Positions 25,323 through 51,423 of a DNA stretch of 64,000 bases are shown piece by piece. Source of the stretch: an uncultured Pseudomonadota bacterium (GTDB taxonomy: Bacteria > Myxococcota_A > UBA796 > GCA-2862545); contig CAJXTB010000015.1 in NCBI GenBank assembly GCA_913061235.1, positions 62,001 to 126,000 of the forward strand, given 5' to 3'. Below the pieces are notes generated by a model that was not told where the DNA came from, ran no database searches, and worked only from the letters and a program-made list of their open reading frames with translations. Position 1 is the stretch's first letter, and each line of letters opens with the position of its first letter. The position numbers and the translations under genes were made by a program.

Positions 25323-27050
25323 ATGCGCTACCTGTCTGCCCTGACCCTCATCACCTTGTTCAGCTGTACCAAGCCTGTTCCGCCGGCACAGCCCGAAGCA
25401 CCGGTCACCATCACGATTGTGGCCATGAATGACTTCCATGGTGCGATCCACTCACAGACCCCACGCGGCCAAGACGACATGCGCATGGGCGGACTGCCGT
25501 GGCTAGTGGGTGCAGTCGAAGCCATTCGCGCTGAGAGCCCAGACATGGTGCTGTTGGACGGCGGCGACGTGTTCCAGGGCGACTGGGAAGTCAACGCGAC
25601 CGAAGGCAGAGGCGCTGTCGACGCACTGAACATGCTCGGCCTAGACGCCGCTGCGGTCGGCAACCACGACTTTGACTACGGCCCCCTCGAAGACGGCGAC
25701 CCCGAGAACCTTCGCGGTGCCCTCGAAGCGGGTGCCAAGCGGTCGAACTTCCAGTGGTTGTCCGCCAACATCGAAAACAGTGATGGAAGCGTCTGGGCAC
25801 CAGAAGGCATTGCGCCATGGACCATCATCGAGCGCAAAGGCAAGCGTATTGGTGTGATTGGCCTGTCCACGCAAGACACGCCGCAGACCACACTTCTGCG
25901 CAACGTCGCCGACCTCGCCTTCACGGACATCGTCGAGACCGTGCAAGAGCTGCTTCCGGTCATCCACGCGGAAGGGGTAGACGCCATGGTGCTCGTCGCC
26001 CACCTCACCGGTAGCTGCGAGCCCGAGGGCTACTTTGAAGTGGGTGCCCCGTGTACACCAGACGACGAAATCGGTCGCTTGCTGAACGAGCTGCCCGTCG
26101 GCACGTTCGACGTCATGGTCCTCGGTCACGCTCACACCATCATGGCCCACCGCGTGGGAGACACCTTCCTGATGGAACAGCGCGCCAAGGGCCACGCCCT
26201 GGGACAGCTCGAGCTGGTCTTCGGACCCGACGGCGTAGACGCAGATGCCAGCCACATTCGGGAGCCATGGCCCCTTCTGCACACGCAGGCTGACCCAGGC
26301 TGTGAGGAAGGCGAATACGACATGACGCCTCAGGCAATCGGCCCGCGTACTGTCACGCCTAATGCCGAAGCCGTCGCCCTCGTCGATGCCCTTGAAGAGG
26401 AAGCTGGCAGCATGTGCCAGGCCCTCGGCTGCGCAGACCACTACCTGGGTCGCACCCGAACCGCTGAGAGCGAAGCCGGAAACTTCATGGCGGATGCGAT
26501 GCTCAGCCACTTCCCGCAAGCCGACTTCGCTATCCAGAACAGCGGCGGAGTTCGCGCCAACCTTCCCGAAGGCGTGGTTCGTCGCGGAAGTCTGCAAGCG
26601 ATGATGCCGTTCGACAACCGCGTCTTCCTCGTCGAAATGACTGGCGAGCAGGTCAATGAGCTGTTCCGTCTAGGCAGCAGTGGCGCCCACGGCATCCTGC
26701 AGGTGGCAGGTGCCAACTACCACTTCGACCCCGAGCAAACCGGCGGGAGCGACCTGGACGGAGACGGTGAGACCGCCGACTGGGAGACCAACCGCCTGTG
26801 CTCAGTGAGCGTTGCAGACGCACCAGTGTCCGACGAAGCCACCTACAAAATCGTCACCACCGACTTCCTGTTCGACGGCGGCGACCACCTTGGCCATGTC
26901 TTTGAACACACCACCTTGCTCGAAGAAGGCCCGCTCCTTCGTGAGGTTCTGTACAGCGCGACCAGCAGTCTTGGAGACGAATGTATTGGCGCCGCTGGGC
27001 CGCTGGTCAATCCCGAAGCACCGCGGATTGCGCAAGGTACCTGCGAGTAG
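25323..27050 (+). CDS. 5'-nucleotidase / 2',3'-cyclic phosphodiesterase, UshA-like lipoprotein
   Basis: A 575-residue lipoprotein (lipobox TLFSC). The N-terminal calcineurin-like metallophosphatase domain shows NDFHG, GGDVFQGD, GNHDFDYG and GHAHT, the standard di-metal ligands. The C-terminal half (from about 360) is the 5'-nucleotidase substrate domain, with QNSGGVRANLPEG and FDNRVF. It would free nucleosides and phosphate from nucleotides in the periplasm or at the surface. CGGGAG precedes the ATG. Confidence 0.9.
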   Translation: MRYLSALTLITLFSCTKPVPPAQPEAPVTITIVAMNDFHGAIHSQTPRGQDDMRMGGLPWLVGAVEAIRAESPDMVLLDGGDVFQGDWEVNATEGRGAVDALNMLGLDAAAVGNHDFDYGPLEDGDPENLRGALEAGAKRSNFQWLSANIENSDGSVWAPEGIAPWTIIERKGKRIGVIGLSTQDTPQTTLLRNVADLAFTDIVETVQELLPVIHAEGVDAMVLVAHLTGSCEPEGYFEVGAPCTPDDEIGRLLNELPVGTFDVMVLGHAHTIMAHRVGDTFLMEQRAKGHALGQLELVFGPDGVDADASHIREPWPLLHTQADPGCEEGEYDMTPQAIGPRTVTPNAEAVALVDALEEEAGSMCQALGCADHYLGRTRTAESEAGNFMADAMLSHFPQADFAIQNSGGVRANLPEGVVRRGSLQAMMPFDNRVFLVEMTGEQVNELFRLGSSGAHGILQVAGANYHFDPEQTGGSDLDGDGETADWETNRLCSVSVADAPVSDEATYKIVTTDFLFDGGDHLGHVFEHTTLLEEGPLLREVLYSATSSLGDECIGAAGPLVNPEAPRIAQGTCE

Positions 27051-27078
27051 GCGGAACGTTCAGGAGTTCTTTCCAGCT

Positions 27079-27134
27079 CAGACGTCAGACGTCAGACGTC
27101 AGACGTCAGACGTCAGAAGTCTGAAGTCTGAAGT
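27079..27134. repeat. 7-bp tandem repeat (CAGACGT) with degenerate end
   Basis: Five exact head-to-tail CAGACGT units (27079-27113) are followed by CAGAAGT, CTGAAGT and CTGAAGT. The run lies 29 bases after the nucleotidase stop in the only long non-coding stretch of the window (27051-27345). GTCAGAAGTC within it (27112-27121) is complementary to GACTTCTGAC at 27269-27278. I see no gene in this interval; slippage could change repeat number. Confidence 0.9.
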
Positions 27135-27332
27135 CAGAGCAACCGGCTGGCGCCAGGTGCATGTTCTCCACGTGCCGACACCCCAGGACCATCCGCTGCC
27201 CCACAGCGTGCCTACTCCAACAGCCCACCTCTAAACTGCTGTAGCTGTAGGCGTCCGCTCTGATACCTGACTTCTGACCTCCAAAACAACCGCGATTCGG
27301 CAGTCCCGGTCCCCCGACTCCACGGTTCCGGG

Positions 27333-37568: not shown

Positions 37569-39641
37569 CTACGCGGCTGGGGTCAATTCCTGGATGGCAC
37601 GAGCGACGTCTGCGCCCTCATCGCCGGTCCAGCCAATGGGGTCGGCCCCACCGGTGCTTCGCCACCAGGACAGCAGGTCGCCGTCGAGCGAGACAACGAC
37701 AACACGAGGACTGTCACCGGTCAGCAAGCGAGTGGCTGCGACACGGCCTTCTGGGGTCAGGTCGGTGAGCACAGCAACCTCAACGTCTCCGACCATCAGT
37801 CGCCACAAGCCGCCGTACGGTGCGTCCATTGGGGCCAACACGGGGTCTTCACGACGCTCGCGCTTGCTGGCTCCGACCTGTACGCGTTCCACGGACAGGT
37901 TCGAGGCAGCGAGGCCTGTCGCAACGGCAACGACGGTGTCGATTCCAGGTCCGCCAAAGCGAGACGTGTCCGACAGCATCCCAGTGTCCACACCAGCGGC
38001 AGACAGACGGACAGCCCAGGACGTTCCTTCCGGAATGCGTACGTGTTCGGGAGCAATCCGGTCGACGGACTTCAAGAAGGCCAACCGGGCAGCCCCAGCT
38101 TCACCGTCTGTCCGCTCGTCCAACACAGGCCGAGCCGCGCGGAACGCTTGGTATGCGCGTCCGAAGGTGTCTACGGCCTTGTCCAACTCAGCGTCATCTG
38201 GCACACCCTGTGCGAGCAGCGCCTTCAGTGCATCCGCGGGAGATGGCGGTGCTGTGGAGACTGCAAGCGTCTCAAACGAGGCTACCAACGCATCTGTCGA
38301 TATGTCGGTGACCACGTGGATTCCCAGCTTCTCGGCGGCGGCACGTAGGGCGTCGTTTCCAGAGCCTGGAGCGTACAGAGCCACGCGCGAGCACAACTCG
38401 GGCAGTCGATTGGCAATGCGCACGGCTAGGTCCTTCTCCCACGGCACGTCGCTCTCGGGCGCCCGTGCGTACAGAAGTTCGACGCCGTCTTTCTCGGCGC
38501 GGAAGGTCCACACACGGCGTTCGGCCGGCTCACCACGGGACAACACGCCACGACGCAGGCTGATCACGCTGTATCCAGCGGCCTCAGAAGCGCGGCGAAG
38601 ATCTACGAGTTCGTCAAATGCGGACTCTGCGTACAGGGACACCGCGAAGGCGCCCTTGGCTGTGAGTGCGTCCATGGCCGACTTGACCGCGGTTCCACCG
38701 GCTGCCAACGCGGTACTGACCAGGTTGGCCAACCACGGAGCAGGGCTGCGGTCGCCAGACACGGCCACGTGGTGGTCGAGTGCCATTGCCGCAATCTCGT
38801 CAACGCGCTCGGGAGAGGCCAAGACAGCCTCTTCGAGCAGACGCAGGCGGTCGCGCCAGCGCTTCGGGGTCAGCGTCCCAAGAACGTCATCGAGCGGGTG
38901 CTCAATGGGCGGCGCCTTCTCTCTCGGAGCACGAGGCTCCTTGGCAGCACGAGGCTCCTTGGCAGCACGAGGCTCCTTGGCGTCTGCTTGGTCGTCATTG
39001 CGACCGCGTCCACCGCGCTCCAACAAGTCAGCGAGCGACGATTCTACTTCACGAATGCCGGCAACCCGTGCGGCATCATCTGGAGCAGAGAGTGCCCAGG
39101 ACAGGCGAATCCAGGTGCGGACGAGCTGTGTGCTCGGTCCACGGCCACCAGCGAGTGCCTGATTGGCGTCTTCCCACTTGCCCCTGCGTGCAAGGGACAT
39201 GGCCTGTGCAACGCGGCTTCCACGGTCCTCACGAGTAGGCTTTGCACCGCGCTCGCGACGTTCCTTGCCACCGCGATTTCCGTCGCGACCGCCGTCACGA
39301 GGATTGCGCTCGCGGCGGTTTTCCGAAGCCCGGGGGCCTACAATCGCCTTCTCAGCGCCGAGTCCTGCGAGCAGCGCCTGTGCATCGCGAAGGTCCTCTT
39401 TCGGTGCTGCTGGATGCGTTTGGCACAGCGAGATCAACGACCGCGCCTCTTGCTCCGCACCCGCAGAGTTGCCCAACAACGCGTGCAGTCGGGAAATGGC
39501 CCCAGCCGCTTGCCGTTGTGCCACCATGTCGCCGAGCTTCGTTGCCCGCCACACACTGATTCGTCCCAAGAGTGCCCGCTGTGCGGCTTCATCCGTCGCC
39601 GCCGCAATCTCGCCGGACCATTGCTTCATTACCGAACCCAT
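37569..39641 (-). CDS. Unknown protein with basic repeat linker
   Basis: A 690-residue protein, apparently cytoplasmic, without a known family. An N-terminal helical part (about 1-95) is followed by a strongly basic, disordered Arg/Gly stretch (about 103-145), a second helical part and three exact copies of KEPRAA-type hexapeptide (see 38928-38981); the larger C-terminal part (about 245-690) alternates helices and strands and may be Rossmann-like. Start placed at 39641, where GGGAG precedes the ATG; upstream in-frame ATGs at 39653 and 39710 lack one. A long frame on the opposite strand is its shadow. Confidence 0.65.
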   Translation of the reverse strand: MGSVMKQWSGEIAAATDEAAQRALLGRISVWRATKLGDMVAQRQAAGAISRLHALLGNSAGAEQEARSLISLCQTHPAAPKEDLRDAQALLAGLGAEKAIVGPRASENRRERNPRDGGRDGNRGGKERRERGAKPTREDRGSRVAQAMSLARRGKWEDANQALAGGRGPSTQLVRTWIRLSWALSAPDDAARVAGIREVESSLADLLERGGRGRNDDQADAKEPRAAKEPRAAKEPRAPREKAPPIEHPLDDVLGTLTPKRWRDRLRLLEEAVLASPERVDEIAAMALDHHVAVSGDRSPAPWLANLVSTALAAGGTAVKSAMDALTAKGAFAVSLYAESAFDELVDLRRASEAAGYSVISLRRGVLSRGEPAERRVWTFRAEKDGVELLYARAPESDVPWEKDLAVRIANRLPELCSRVALYAPGSGNDALRAAAEKLGIHVVTDISTDALVASFETLAVSTAPPSPADALKALLAQGVPDDAELDKAVDTFGRAYQAFRAARPVLDERTDGEAGAARLAFLKSVDRIAPEHVRIPEGTSWAVRLSAAGVDTGMLSDTSRFGGPGIDTVVAVATGLAASNLSVERVQVGASKRERREDPVLAPMDAPYGGLWRLMVGDVEVAVLTDLTPEGRVAATRLLTGDSPRVVVVSLDGDLLSWWRSTGGADPIGWTGDEGADVARAIQELTPAA
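38928..38981. repeat. Three exact 18-bp tandem repeats within a coding region
   Basis: The unit AGCACGAGGCTCCTTGGC occurs three times head to tail (38928, 38946, 38964). On the coding strand it gives a repeated hexapeptide AKEPRA, forming a charged linker. Being in frame, copy-number change would not break the gene. Confidence 0.95.
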
Positions 39642-48511: not shown

Positions 48512-50362
48512 GTGCTGATCGCGGCAATCATCGCCCTATTCGTTGGGGTCGCCATTGTTCCGCTGGTCCGCGGGCGACGCCTTGCACTCGCCGCACTCGA
48601 CGGATTCGTCCTGACAGCGCTCGCTGGGCTGTTGCTGGTTCATGTGATCCCCGAGAGCATCCATGAGGCCGGTTTTTGGGCCGTCATCATGGTGGTCGCC
48701 GGCGTCTTCTTGCCACGACTGCTCGAAGGCGGAACCCACTCGCATGAGGCCAATCACAAAGAACCGTGGAGCATCCTGACCGTCGCATCCCTGGGCTTGT
48801 TGGTCCATGCATTCTTAGACGGAGGAGCGCTGTCAATTGATGCGCTGCATCTCCACGACTCGGATGCGCTGACGCTCGGCGTGGTCCTTCATCGTCTGCC
48901 TATGGGCATGATTATCGGCCTTTTGGGTTCGAAGGGCCGCCGCTGGCTGCCGTGGGCTGTCGCTAGTGCTGTGGGTGTCGCCACCATCGGCGGCTACCAA
49001 GCGGGTCTCGAAGCCCTTCCAGCAATGGGCATCACGGGTCTGGCCCTGATGCAAGCGTTGGTCGCAGGCACCCTCGGCCACGTTGTTCTAGAGCGCGCCC
49101 CAGACCTGTCGGACAACACCCAATCGGGGAGACGAGCATCCGCACTCGGAGCGCTGGCGGGAATCGGCCTTAGCGTCGGCCTCTTGTTCGTTCACGGACA
49201 CAGCGGCGGTCCGACTCTGGCCATGCAGGCGGCGACAGCGTTGCTCGACTTGCTGTTGGAGTCCGCCCCTGCCCTGCTCATCGCCTTTGCCGGTGCTGGC
49301 CTGCTGACAGCCACTCTACGCGGTGAGCCCTTGAAGTGGATTGCACGCGGCTCGGCACCGACCCAAGCGCTCAAGGGTATGGCTGTCGGACTGCCTGTAC
49401 CGGTCTGCTCCTGCGGTGTATTGCCCATCTACCAGACCCTGATTGCACGGGGTGTCCCGGCGTCAGCGGCACTCGCGTTCTTGGTGGCCACACCAGAGCT
49501 CGGGATCGATGCTCTACTCATCTCCATTCCACTGCTCGGCGGCTCTCTGACCCTCGCCCGACTGCTTGCGGCCGCCGTTGTCGCGTGGTTGACGGGTGTG
49601 CTGTTGGGGGCGTGGTTACCGGCCAAGCACTCTCATGCAGAGGCAAAGCCCGAAGACGACCGTCCCCTCGCAGTCCGCATGCGGGCTGGAATGGTCTGGT
49701 CCGTCACCGAGCTCGCTGACCACCTGCTGCCGTGGATGGCTGTGGGACTCGCGGTCGCCGCAATCGCAACCCCGCTTCTCGCAACCGACGCTCTGGTTGG
49801 TCTGCCGCGGTGGGCACAAGTCCCAGCAGCCGTGCTCATTGGACTGCCAGTGTACGTGTGTGCGTCAGGGTCCACGCCTATCGCTGCGGTTCTGCTCCAC
49901 AAGGGCTTGTCGCCCGGCGCCGCCCTCGCATTCTTACTCGCCGGACCCGCCACCAACGCCACGACCTTTGGTGTGCTGCGCGGCGAGTTCGGTACCCGGG
50001 CAGCCATTGCATTCGGCGTTGTCGTTGGCGGTGGCGCCATGCTCGCAGGCTTCGCCGTAGACGCCATTTTCGTCCGCTTTACCCTAGACGTTGCAGCCGC
50101 AGCAGACACGCATGCACACGGTTGGGTGTCGTGGACTGCACTCGGTGGACTCGCTCTGTTGGCTCTCGGCTCTCTGTTCCGCCAGGGTCCCCGAGGATGG
50201 CTCGGCCAACTTTGGGGAGACGGTCACAGTCACGACCATGGCGACCACGACCACAGCCACCACGACCATGCGCACGAACACGACCATGCGCACGAACACG
50301 ACCATACGCACGAACACGACCATGCGCACGAACACGACCATGCGCACGAGCACGACCACTAG
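48512..50362 (+). CDS. ZIP-like / ArsP-SO_0444-type permease fusion with His-repeat tail
   Basis: A 616-residue membrane protein in three parts. Residues about 1-225 are a ZIP-like unit (VIPESIHE, a THSHEANH loop, VVLHRLPMGMIIG, HVVLERAPD). Residues about 235-560 are a permease of the DUF318/ArsP and SO_0444 Cu/Zn efflux type, with GLPVPVCSCGVLPIYQ and its second-half counterpart VYVCASGSTPIAAVLL. The C-terminus is a tail of HDHAHE-type repeats encoded by 18-bp DNA repeats. GTG start with GGGAG. Probably exports or balances zinc, copper or cobalt, with the tail buffering metal. Confidence 0.82.
   Translation: MLIAAIIALFVGVAIVPLVRGRRLALAALDGFVLTALAGLLLVHVIPESIHEAGFWAVIMVVAGVFLPRLLEGGTHSHEANHKEPWSILTVASLGLLVHAFLDGGALSIDALHLHDSDALTLGVVLHRLPMGMIIGLLGSKGRRWLPWAVASAVGVATIGGYQAGLEALPAMGITGLALMQALVAGTLGHVVLERAPDLSDNTQSGRRASALGALAGIGLSVGLLFVHGHSGGPTLAMQAATALLDLLLESAPALLIAFAGAGLLTATLRGEPLKWIARGSAPTQALKGMAVGLPVPVCSCGVLPIYQTLIARGVPASAALAFLVATPELGIDALLISIPLLGGSLTLARLLAAAVVAWLTGVLLGAWLPAKHSHAEAKPEDDRPLAVRMRAGMVWSVTELADHLLPWMAVGLAVAAIATPLLATDALVGLPRWAQVPAAVLIGLPVYVCASGSTPIAAVLLHKGLSPGAALAFLLAGPATNATTFGVLRGEFGTRAAIAFGVVVGGGAMLAGFAVDAIFVRFTLDVAAAADTHAHGWVSWTALGGLALLALGSLFRQGPRGWLGQLWGDGHSHDHGDHDHSHHDHAHEHDHAHEHDHTHEHDHAHEHDHAHEHDH
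50261..50359. repeat. 18-bp tandem repeats encoding His-rich tail
   Basis: Five copies of CACGACCATGCGCACGAA (third copy has ATACGC, last ends GAG) plus a partial unit run to the stop codon. Each encodes HDHAHE. The number of copies, and so of metal-binding histidines, could vary by slippage without shifting the frame. Confidence 0.92.
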
Positions 50363-51423
50363 GCCGAGGCGGCACCCAGCTCTACAAGTTGGTGAGCGAC
50401 TTCCACAACAAGCGCCAACGATGCCCCAACTGATGCGGCAATCTCGTCCAGGCTTCGCTTGCCGTCCAGAGAGTGCAACACTTCGACTGCGGCGGGATGA
50501 ACGTAGACCGCGCGGTAAGGGCCGTCCCACACAAGAACACCCCGTTCCACAACGTTTTCGTCTGCGTCAAGCTTGGGAATGATGAGCCCGTCAGCAACAG
50601 CTTTCGGGAACGGACCGGCCACGCCAGGAGGGGCATCCCCTAGCAGCGTGGACCAGTTTGGAACCTGTCCAGCGACCAATCCAGCCAGTCCATAGGTGTC
50701 CATGGCGGTCTGATTCGGCAGCAGGTTGCGCAGCTGGTCGTGGGCAGCAAGGCCATCTGCCCCTGTCGGGACGAAGCTCTCAAACTCGACTGCCACAATG
50801 CCGTCGCTGTCCACCAGCGCCAGAACGTCATCCAGGGTGGCGGCGAGCTTGTCTCCCGGCATGCGGCAGTAGCATGGCAAGTCAACCGGCTCTGCGGGGG
50901 CCATCGGCTGTCCCGTTGCCACACAGACCGCAGGTGCCCCATCCCGTGGCCCACGAGCCACCACACCGTAATTCACCTGCGGGTCGAGCTGTTGCCGCAT
51001 CCACTCCTCATCCGGCAGCGGCCATCGCCGATCTACCGTGCGCGGCCAGCCCAAGACCGGGGCCAAGACTTCCGTTGCCCGCGACAACACCGCAAGTGCA
51101 TCGCCATTGGGGCCCCGCTTCCAGGCCTCACGCGCATCCTCAATGAGGGCGCCCAGCGGGTAAGTGTCGAGCAATGCGATGACATGTTCGGCGGCAGCAG
51201 CGACCTGGTAGGGCGTCTTACCGGCTCGCAAGACGGCATCCGCCAACACTCGGCGTACCGGCCCCACGTACATGCTGCGCACGTACAAGGCATCTCGAAG
51301 CCGGATTCCAAGGTCTACGGTCCCAATCGGCTCGGTTCCGTGCGGCGGAAACGGTCCCGGCGGATACAGCGGTGTCCAGTCGGCGCTAGAAATGGTGACC
51401 TCTACAATGCAACCCCATACCAC
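50359..51423 (-). CDS. Protein of unknown function with PqqD-like C-terminus
   Basis: A 354-residue cytoplasmic protein. The end (YVHPAAVEVLHSLDGKRSLDEIAASVGASLALVVEVAHQLVELG) resembles a PqqD-like winged-helix module that binds peptides. The middle has CYCRMPGDKLAATLDDVLALVDSDG. No family for the rest. Its stop shares CTAG with the stop of the transporter gene. The start ATG at 51423 has only a weak ribosome site. Confidence 0.6.
   Translation of the reverse strand: MVWGCIVEVTISSADWTPLYPPGPFPPHGTEPIGTVDLGIRLRDALYVRSMYVGPVRRVLADAVLRAGKTPYQVAAAAEHVIALLDTYPLGALIEDAREAWKRGPNGDALAVLSRATEVLAPVLGWPRTVDRRWPLPDEEWMRQQLDPQVNYGVVARGPRDGAPAVCVATGQPMAPAEPVDLPCYCRMPGDKLAATLDDVLALVDSDGIVAVEFESFVPTGADGLAAHDQLRNLLPNQTAMDTYGLAGLVAGQVPNWSTLLGDAPPGVAGPFPKAVADGLIIPKLDADENVVERGVLVWDGPYRAVYVHPAAVEVLHSLDGKRSLDEIAASVGASLALVVEVAHQLVELGAASA

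Follow-up and report, generated by a model that had tools for sequence, protein, structure and literature searches.

A bacterial protein that joins a divergent ZIP-like half to an ArsP-type permease half and a repeat-coded histidine-rich tail

Introduction

The metal ligands of the ZIP transporter BbZIP are given as H177, E181, Q207 and E211 (PMC9278863). In human ZIP2 (SLC39A2) a lysine, Lys203, is reported to replace the second ion, single-metal transport has been proposed, and the exchange K203R is reported to have lowered transport by about 72% (PMC6527156). ZIP proteins described as working in efflux include rice OsZIP1 (PMC6598308) and fly ZIP13 (PMC4130162). Among permeases, SO_0444 is described as needed for growth of Shewanella under zinc or copper stress (PMC3219624), and a relative of SO_0444 in Nitratiruptor as induced by cadmium and copper (PMC10092412).

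Here we analyse a gene that carries a half of each kind in a single chain. It lies in a 64,000-nucleotide stretch of DNA (hereafter the window) from an uncultured bacterium with a genome of 7.18 Mb. A preliminary description had read the product as a ZIP-like half joined to an ArsP/SO_0444-like half, with a metal-binding tail coded by 18-bp repeats, and had ascribed opposite transport directions to the two halves. The architecture is borne out by our analysis, both for the two halves and for the tail (Table 1); the directions are a different matter and are taken up in the Discussion.

Table 1. Features of the fusion gene and of its product in the window.
Feature	Position	Strand	Remarks
Fusion gene	48512..50362	+	GTG start, TAG stop, 616 aa; single open frame; full-length relatives
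ZIP-like half, residues 1-232	48512..49207	+	8 membrane helices (predicted); N-terminus placed outside by the charge pattern; hhalign, Foldseek, VIA
HAFLDG motif (H99, D103)	48806..48823	+	counterpart of ZIP helix-4 HNxPEG
HRLPMG motif (H127, R128, P130)	48890..48907	+	counterpart of ZIP helix-5 (Q/H)(N/D)xPEG; Arg at second-metal position
ArsP_1 / SO_0444-sister permease half, residues 234-568	49211..50215	+	CSCG, TPELG and GPATN motifs; Pfam; ArsB-like structure
His-rich C-terminal tail	50219..50359	+	contains 23 His; disorder and a cytosolic location predicted; pLDDT about 45
18-bp tandem array	50261..50358	+	TRF: 5.4 copies, 96% match; codes HDHAHE

Results

The gene and its full-length relatives

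A missed stop between the two halves, which the preliminary description had considered, was looked for: the 616 codons run through with zero in-frame stops. The AlphaFold model of the whole protein has a pLDDT of 86.4 and a pTM of 0.85. At its end the gene shares four bases (50359-50362) with the stop of a convergent gene on the minus strand (50359-51423). None of the genes beside the fusion gene in the window is a metal gene; they specify a carbamoyltransferase, a GNAT acetyltransferase, a 5'-nucleotidase and YidD. Tandem repeats also occur elsewhere in the window. A 7-bp unit, TCAGACG, is present in 8.7 copies at 27078-27138, just past the open reading frame 25323-27050, with the final copies inverted, and a perfect threefold repeat of an 18-bp unit at 38928-38981 is read as an AAKEPR-type linker in a minus-strand open reading frame of 713 aa.

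When the same fusion was searched for, relatives that match over the full length, with identities of about 35-47%, turned up across Myxococcota and in no fewer than eight further groups of phylum level. The carriers belong to Myxococcota, Planctomycetota, Acidobacteriota, Gemmatimonadota, Latescibacterota, Neomarinimicrobiota, Bdellovibrionales, Rhodothermaceae, Binatia and Gammaproteobacteria; those in Acidobacteriota include two named strains, Acanthopleuribacter pedis and, with two copies, Sulfidibacter corallicola. Alteromonadaceae bacterium M269 is a further carrier of the fusion. GTDB contigs yielded 499 confirmed relatives, and almost all of the 80 that were kept span both halves. Within the host's phylum, 168 of 282 genomes have some match to the fusion, unfused permeases and ZIPs included, and a model of the N-terminal half finds a match in 160. 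No plasmid-borne relative was found when the N-terminal half was compared with plasmids by tblastn.

An assembly or gene-calling artefact that joins two adjacent genes has virtually no probability left. Besides the uninterrupted frame, 76 of the best 80 matches from the 282 genomes (E up to 2.5e-45) lie in frames of at least 595 aa, the other four are three permease pieces at contig ends and one ZIP half alone, and the fusion is also present in the complete genome NZ_CP071793.1. Since full-length relatives exist, chance and assembly artefact are ruled out.

The N-terminal half

Standard family models pass over this half. A Pfam and NCBIfam scan of the window protein gave no ZIP match in the N-terminal half, where the PF02535 gathering score of 35.1 bits was not reached; the sole Zip match in the protein (E 3.8) was strongest over the His tail rather than over the N-terminal half. 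By sequence comparison there was no ZIP among the PDB sequences that match the window protein. A weak Pfam match to Sugar_transport (20.3 bits, under its own cut-off) was set aside as an identity for this half. When 57 genomes were searched with Pfam Zip, fusion frames (601, 619 and 614 aa, and others) were matched at E 3e-8 to 7e-5, every one of them short of the curated cut-off, with 34.2 bits as the best score outside the window.

An alignment of 28 fusion N-terminal halves was compared by hhalign with ten canonical ZIPs from the host's phylum; it aligned over 214 columns with a probability of 98.3 and an E of 2.5e-14, so the failure to align with ZIP families envisaged in the preliminary description did not occur. 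The same 28 sequences gave a probability of 0.5 against the permease half, and a view of the two halves as mutual duplicates is thus unsupported. Modelled alone, the N-terminal half reaches a pLDDT of 88.7 and a pTM of 0.83. Foldseek placed BbZIP at ranks 1-9, all with probability 1.00, and the next match at 0.12; VIA placed eight BbZIP entries at Z 12.0-13.9 (the top match at rmsd 4.3 over 208 residues) and the next entry, a non-ZIP, at 6.6. As the tool itself warns, a Z of about 13-14 is insufficient by itself for helical proteins, and our claim therefore builds on sequence profile and fold together. By both of these, what stands at the N-terminus is a whole eight-helix ZIP, though a divergent one. 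The view that it is not a ZIP is rejected by the hhalign result, by the Zip matches on fusion frames of other genomes and by the BbZIP-like fold.

The orientation was read from positive charges. Over 67 fusions, with helix limits taken from the model, the mean numbers of Lys plus Arg in successive loops of the ZIP half are 1.88/0.07/2.70/0.33/2.24/0.09/2.79, followed by 0.22 in the linker, 2.37 after the first permease helix and 0.40 in the last outside loop. Read from these charges, the ZIP half lies in the membrane as ZIPs usually do, N-out. Positive charge is sparse in the last outside loop, and the last helix finishes with Arg557 and Arg561, conserved in 90% or more; a cytosolic tail is therefore expected. 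Neither the fold nor the positive-inside rule fixes a direction of transport.

The metal site

In the hhalign alignment H99, D103 and H127 fall at the places of the canonical helix-4 His, helix-4 Glu and helix-5 Gln; matched through these shared motifs, they would correspond to H177, E181 and Q207 of BbZIP. Among fused proteins, H99 is conserved in 107/109 and both D103 and H127 in 109/109. The fourth place of the M1 site (position 131, equivalent to E211) holds Met in the window protein and Glu in 29/109 fused proteins, so that the window protein keeps three of the four BbZIP ligands. On the cytosolic side, the polar residue E72 is kept, and most relatives have His at 194.

The second metal site of the binuclear centre is not kept in the fused ZIP halves. 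In comparison with the second-metal ligands of canonical ZIPs, N has become A/T/S/G, N/D has become R, and the helix-6 E has become A/G/S/V; the residues listed at position 157 include no acid. Arg at 128 occurs in 105/109 fused proteins with an intact permease, in 4/12 with a degraded permease and in 19/40 lone ZIP halves. These are raw counts, and a tie of Arg128 to an intact permease is not established, the tree yielding only two independent pairs on supported branches.

The permease half

Residues 238-515 match Pfam ArsP_1 at E 8e-38 (130.7 bits against a cut-off of 32.3). The NCBIfam model of SO_0444 (NF033936) matches at E 9.9e-61 with 205.8 bits, under its equivalog cut-off of 300. Four other fusions score 202-227 bits, which puts 5/5 fused permeases below 300, and 5/6 unfused permeases tested lie above it. 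By these scores the half is a predicted ArsP_1-fold permease, near SO_0444 but outside this Cu/Zn family by NCBI's cut-off. The best structural match of its model is the ArsB of Leptospirillum ferriphilum (10tp; VIA Z 14.2, 266 residues, rmsd 4.8), and the model also resembles sodium-coupled carboxylate carriers. In a tree of a sample of 45 of the 109 fused permeases with 20 unfused ones, all of the latter from one phylum, a single branch splits the two groups (SH-aLRT 100). The fused permeases of this tree are thus one side of a branch, by which a single origin is not proved.

The tail

The first approximately 40 bases of the tail precede the 18-bp array, which codes for most of the 23 His. 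Tails were surveyed in 106 of the 109 fused proteins, the other three having no recognisable boundary. Eight or more His are found in 57/106, fewer His together with a CC pair in 25/106, and neither eight His nor CC nor CxC in 19/106; the remainder have CxC only. Tandem arrays are present in 49/106 tails, with a unit length that is nearly always a multiple of three bases. The preliminary description had suggested that tail length may differ between strains; between species, tail length, repeat unit and metal-binding residue (His or Cys) all vary. As the repeat unit differs between lineages, we infer that the tail has probably been rebuilt many times. A Cys version of a repeat-coded tail is seen in the relative L078, where 36-bp repeats code for SCCGTETAPKE-like units. 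In the relatives L019 and L009, ZIP helices 3 and 4 are linked by a loop, predicted to be cytosolic, that holds a large insert rich in His.

Unfused SO_0444-like permeases of the host's phylum have a C-terminal HMA domain in nine of the ten tested (L232, L234, L236-L239, L243, L248 and L251). Because this domain sits at the end that bears the tail in fused proteins, the analogy suggests that the His/Cys tail and the HMA domain may share the job of catching cytosolic metal.

Probable loss of the permease half

Among 171 distinct N-terminal halves in the fetched loci, 109 are joined to an intact permease, 16 to a degraded C-terminal half and 43 to none, and 3 are cut at contig ends; these counts are no frequencies, short forms having been deliberately oversampled. 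A C-terminal half was called degraded when it was without the CSCG and GPATN motifs, and four of the 16 lie on cut or broken contigs. The 43 without a permease include three canonical or distant ZIPs, leaving 40 lone forms. Degraded C-terminal halves are nonetheless recognisable, as twelve of them jointly match the permease profile with a probability of 98.1 (E 1.4e-13). Examples of a ZIP half with a motif-less degraded permease are L182, L183, L187, L188, L185, L057 and L205, some of which keep a His tail.

The ZIP tree intermingles fused, degraded and lone forms and sets canonical ZIPs apart (support 99); the row closest to the window protein is a lone ZIP half (support 98). The ligands H99, D103 and H127 are kept in 16/16 degraded forms; in the lone forms H99 and H127 are kept in 40/40 and position 103 is D or E in 40/40. 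We read this as a probable repeated loss of the permease while the ZIP half stayed in use. With a basal group made up mostly of lone forms (support 95), it may also be that lone ZIP halves came first. Since relatives with a degraded permease or with none keep the ZIP site, the ZIP half probably functions by itself.

The same counts bear on the view that the ZIP half, without transporting anything, senses metal or acts as a scaffold for the permease. The loss of the second-metal site, the absence of Glu131 in 80/109 and the lack of an acid among the listed helix-6 residues fit such a role, but the ligands persist in 16 proteins with a degraded permease and in 40 lone ones, where sensing for a permease would be pointless, and human ZIP2 is reported to transport with a comparable site (PMC6527156). 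We consider a sensor or scaffold quite improbable.

Genes next to the relatives

At 80 loci 141 neighbours within 1200 bases were called by a home-made codon-usage heuristic; 100 of these are under 420 aa, and 74/100 were scanned after near-duplicate lineages had been dropped. Metal-linked genes accompany a handful of these 80 loci. ArsR lies beside L081 and L127, PCu(A)C precedes L133, CobW follows L079 and L106, and DtxR-FeoA is divergent from L117. They hint at a metal role and are suggestive only. Outside the window, the majority of the neighbours are housekeeping genes or genes specific to a lineage.

Discussion

We tentatively favour, with slightly less than an even chance of its being right, a two-module protein of the inner membrane for homeostasis of metals of the Zn/Cu class, in which the permease would export metal loaded by the tail and the ZIP half would be active. 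The first module would be a divergent ZIP of single-metal type, with most of the M1 site kept and Arg128 at the BbZIP second-metal place; the second would be an ArsB-fold permease, a sister of the SO_0444 Cu/Zn exporters. The cytosolic tail, rich in His or Cys, would gather metal by the cytosolic face and load the permease, through which excess metal of the Zn/Cu class would leave the cytosol. By itself, the ZIP half would move metal of this class too, in the manner of an adjustable leak or of a second exit. The architecture, the homologies, the conserved ligands, the predicted topology and the disappearance of the permease from relatives that keep the ZIP site come from sequences or models; the identity of the metal, the direction of transport and a cooperation of the two modules are what we infer.

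Export with tail loading is favoured because of the role reported for SO_0444 under zinc and copper stress and the cadmium and copper induction reported in Nitratiruptor (PMC3219624, PMC10092412). The non-metal genes next to the window gene and most of the neighbours elsewhere count against Zn/Cu homeostasis. Moreover, the substrate need not be copper or zinc, because all five fused permeases tested score below the SO_0444 cut-off, and the tail is not essential everywhere, because some tails (19/106) are without the His or Cys features surveyed.

The opposite directions of the preliminary description were an assumption drawn from family names. As ZIP exporters have been reported (PMC6598308, PMC4130162), and with a permease that falls outside SO_0444, opposite directions are a question and not a finding. 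If the ZIP half also works outward, both halves export and there is no clash of direction. This arrangement of two exporters in tandem draws on the efflux reported for OsZIP1 and fly ZIP13, and a cytosolic His/Cys tail with an HMA analogue favours capture of metal from the cytosol; we nevertheless hold it to be unlikely, if credible, as the ZIP half has the ordinary ZIP orientation and no residue that would couple export was recognised.

The ordinary orientation, with the M1 ligands and the cytosolic-side residues kept, is in turn what would be expected of a ZIP half that imports while the permease exports, the pair setting the metal level with the tail as a shared buffer or switch. Relatives that retain the ZIP half alone, where an importer role is possible, agree with such a pair. 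However, two opposing routes within a single chain, be they passive or coupled, would waste energy unless gated, and no gating element was found; this reading seems rather unlikely to us. A more far-reaching version, which we regard as distinctly improbable, would be a dual-elevator metal exchanger, that is, two unrelated elevator-type transporters with opposite net direction and a shared cytosolic His/Cys store. If it were true, a single protein would set the metal level of the cytosol without help from a transcriptional regulator, and lineages would tune it by the number of tail repeats or by discarding the permease.

Whichever direction applies, family searches read the fused protein as a permease only, and our analysis adds a second, testable half. 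A further gain is a divergent ZIP subfamily that escapes the standard models. Annotation of bacterial metal tolerance that rests on a single Pfam match would benefit from this. As each half has lone relatives, the direction of ZIP and of ArsP-type transport can be compared cleanly.

Comparison with known systems

No description of a ZIP-ArsP/SO_0444 fusion was found among the papers listed by searches of an open-access library, and in comparisons with PDB structures no entry among the matches listed has the fused architecture. With the ZIP family (BbZIP of Bordetella; PF02535) the N-terminal half shares the eight-helix fold, HxxxDG/HxxPxG in helices 4 and 5, and the N-out orientation; it differs in its score below the Pfam cut-off, in the replaced second-metal ligands and in its separate branch (support 99). 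Human ZIP2 likewise has a single-metal site with a basic residue at the BbZIP second-ion place (Lys203 in ZIP2, Arg128 here) but is unfused, and because K203R is reported to have cut ZIP2 transport by so much (PMC6527156), Arg128 is not simply equal to Lys203. ArsB (10tp), an arsenite transporter by name, has 9% identity with the permease half and is without ZIP half or His tail. From the SO_0444 family (NF033936) the present protein differs by a score under the cut-off, by the extra ZIP half and by a His tail in place of the HMA domain. The fusion of a ZIP with an ArsP-type permease looks like an undescribed arrangement of two known kinds of transporter.
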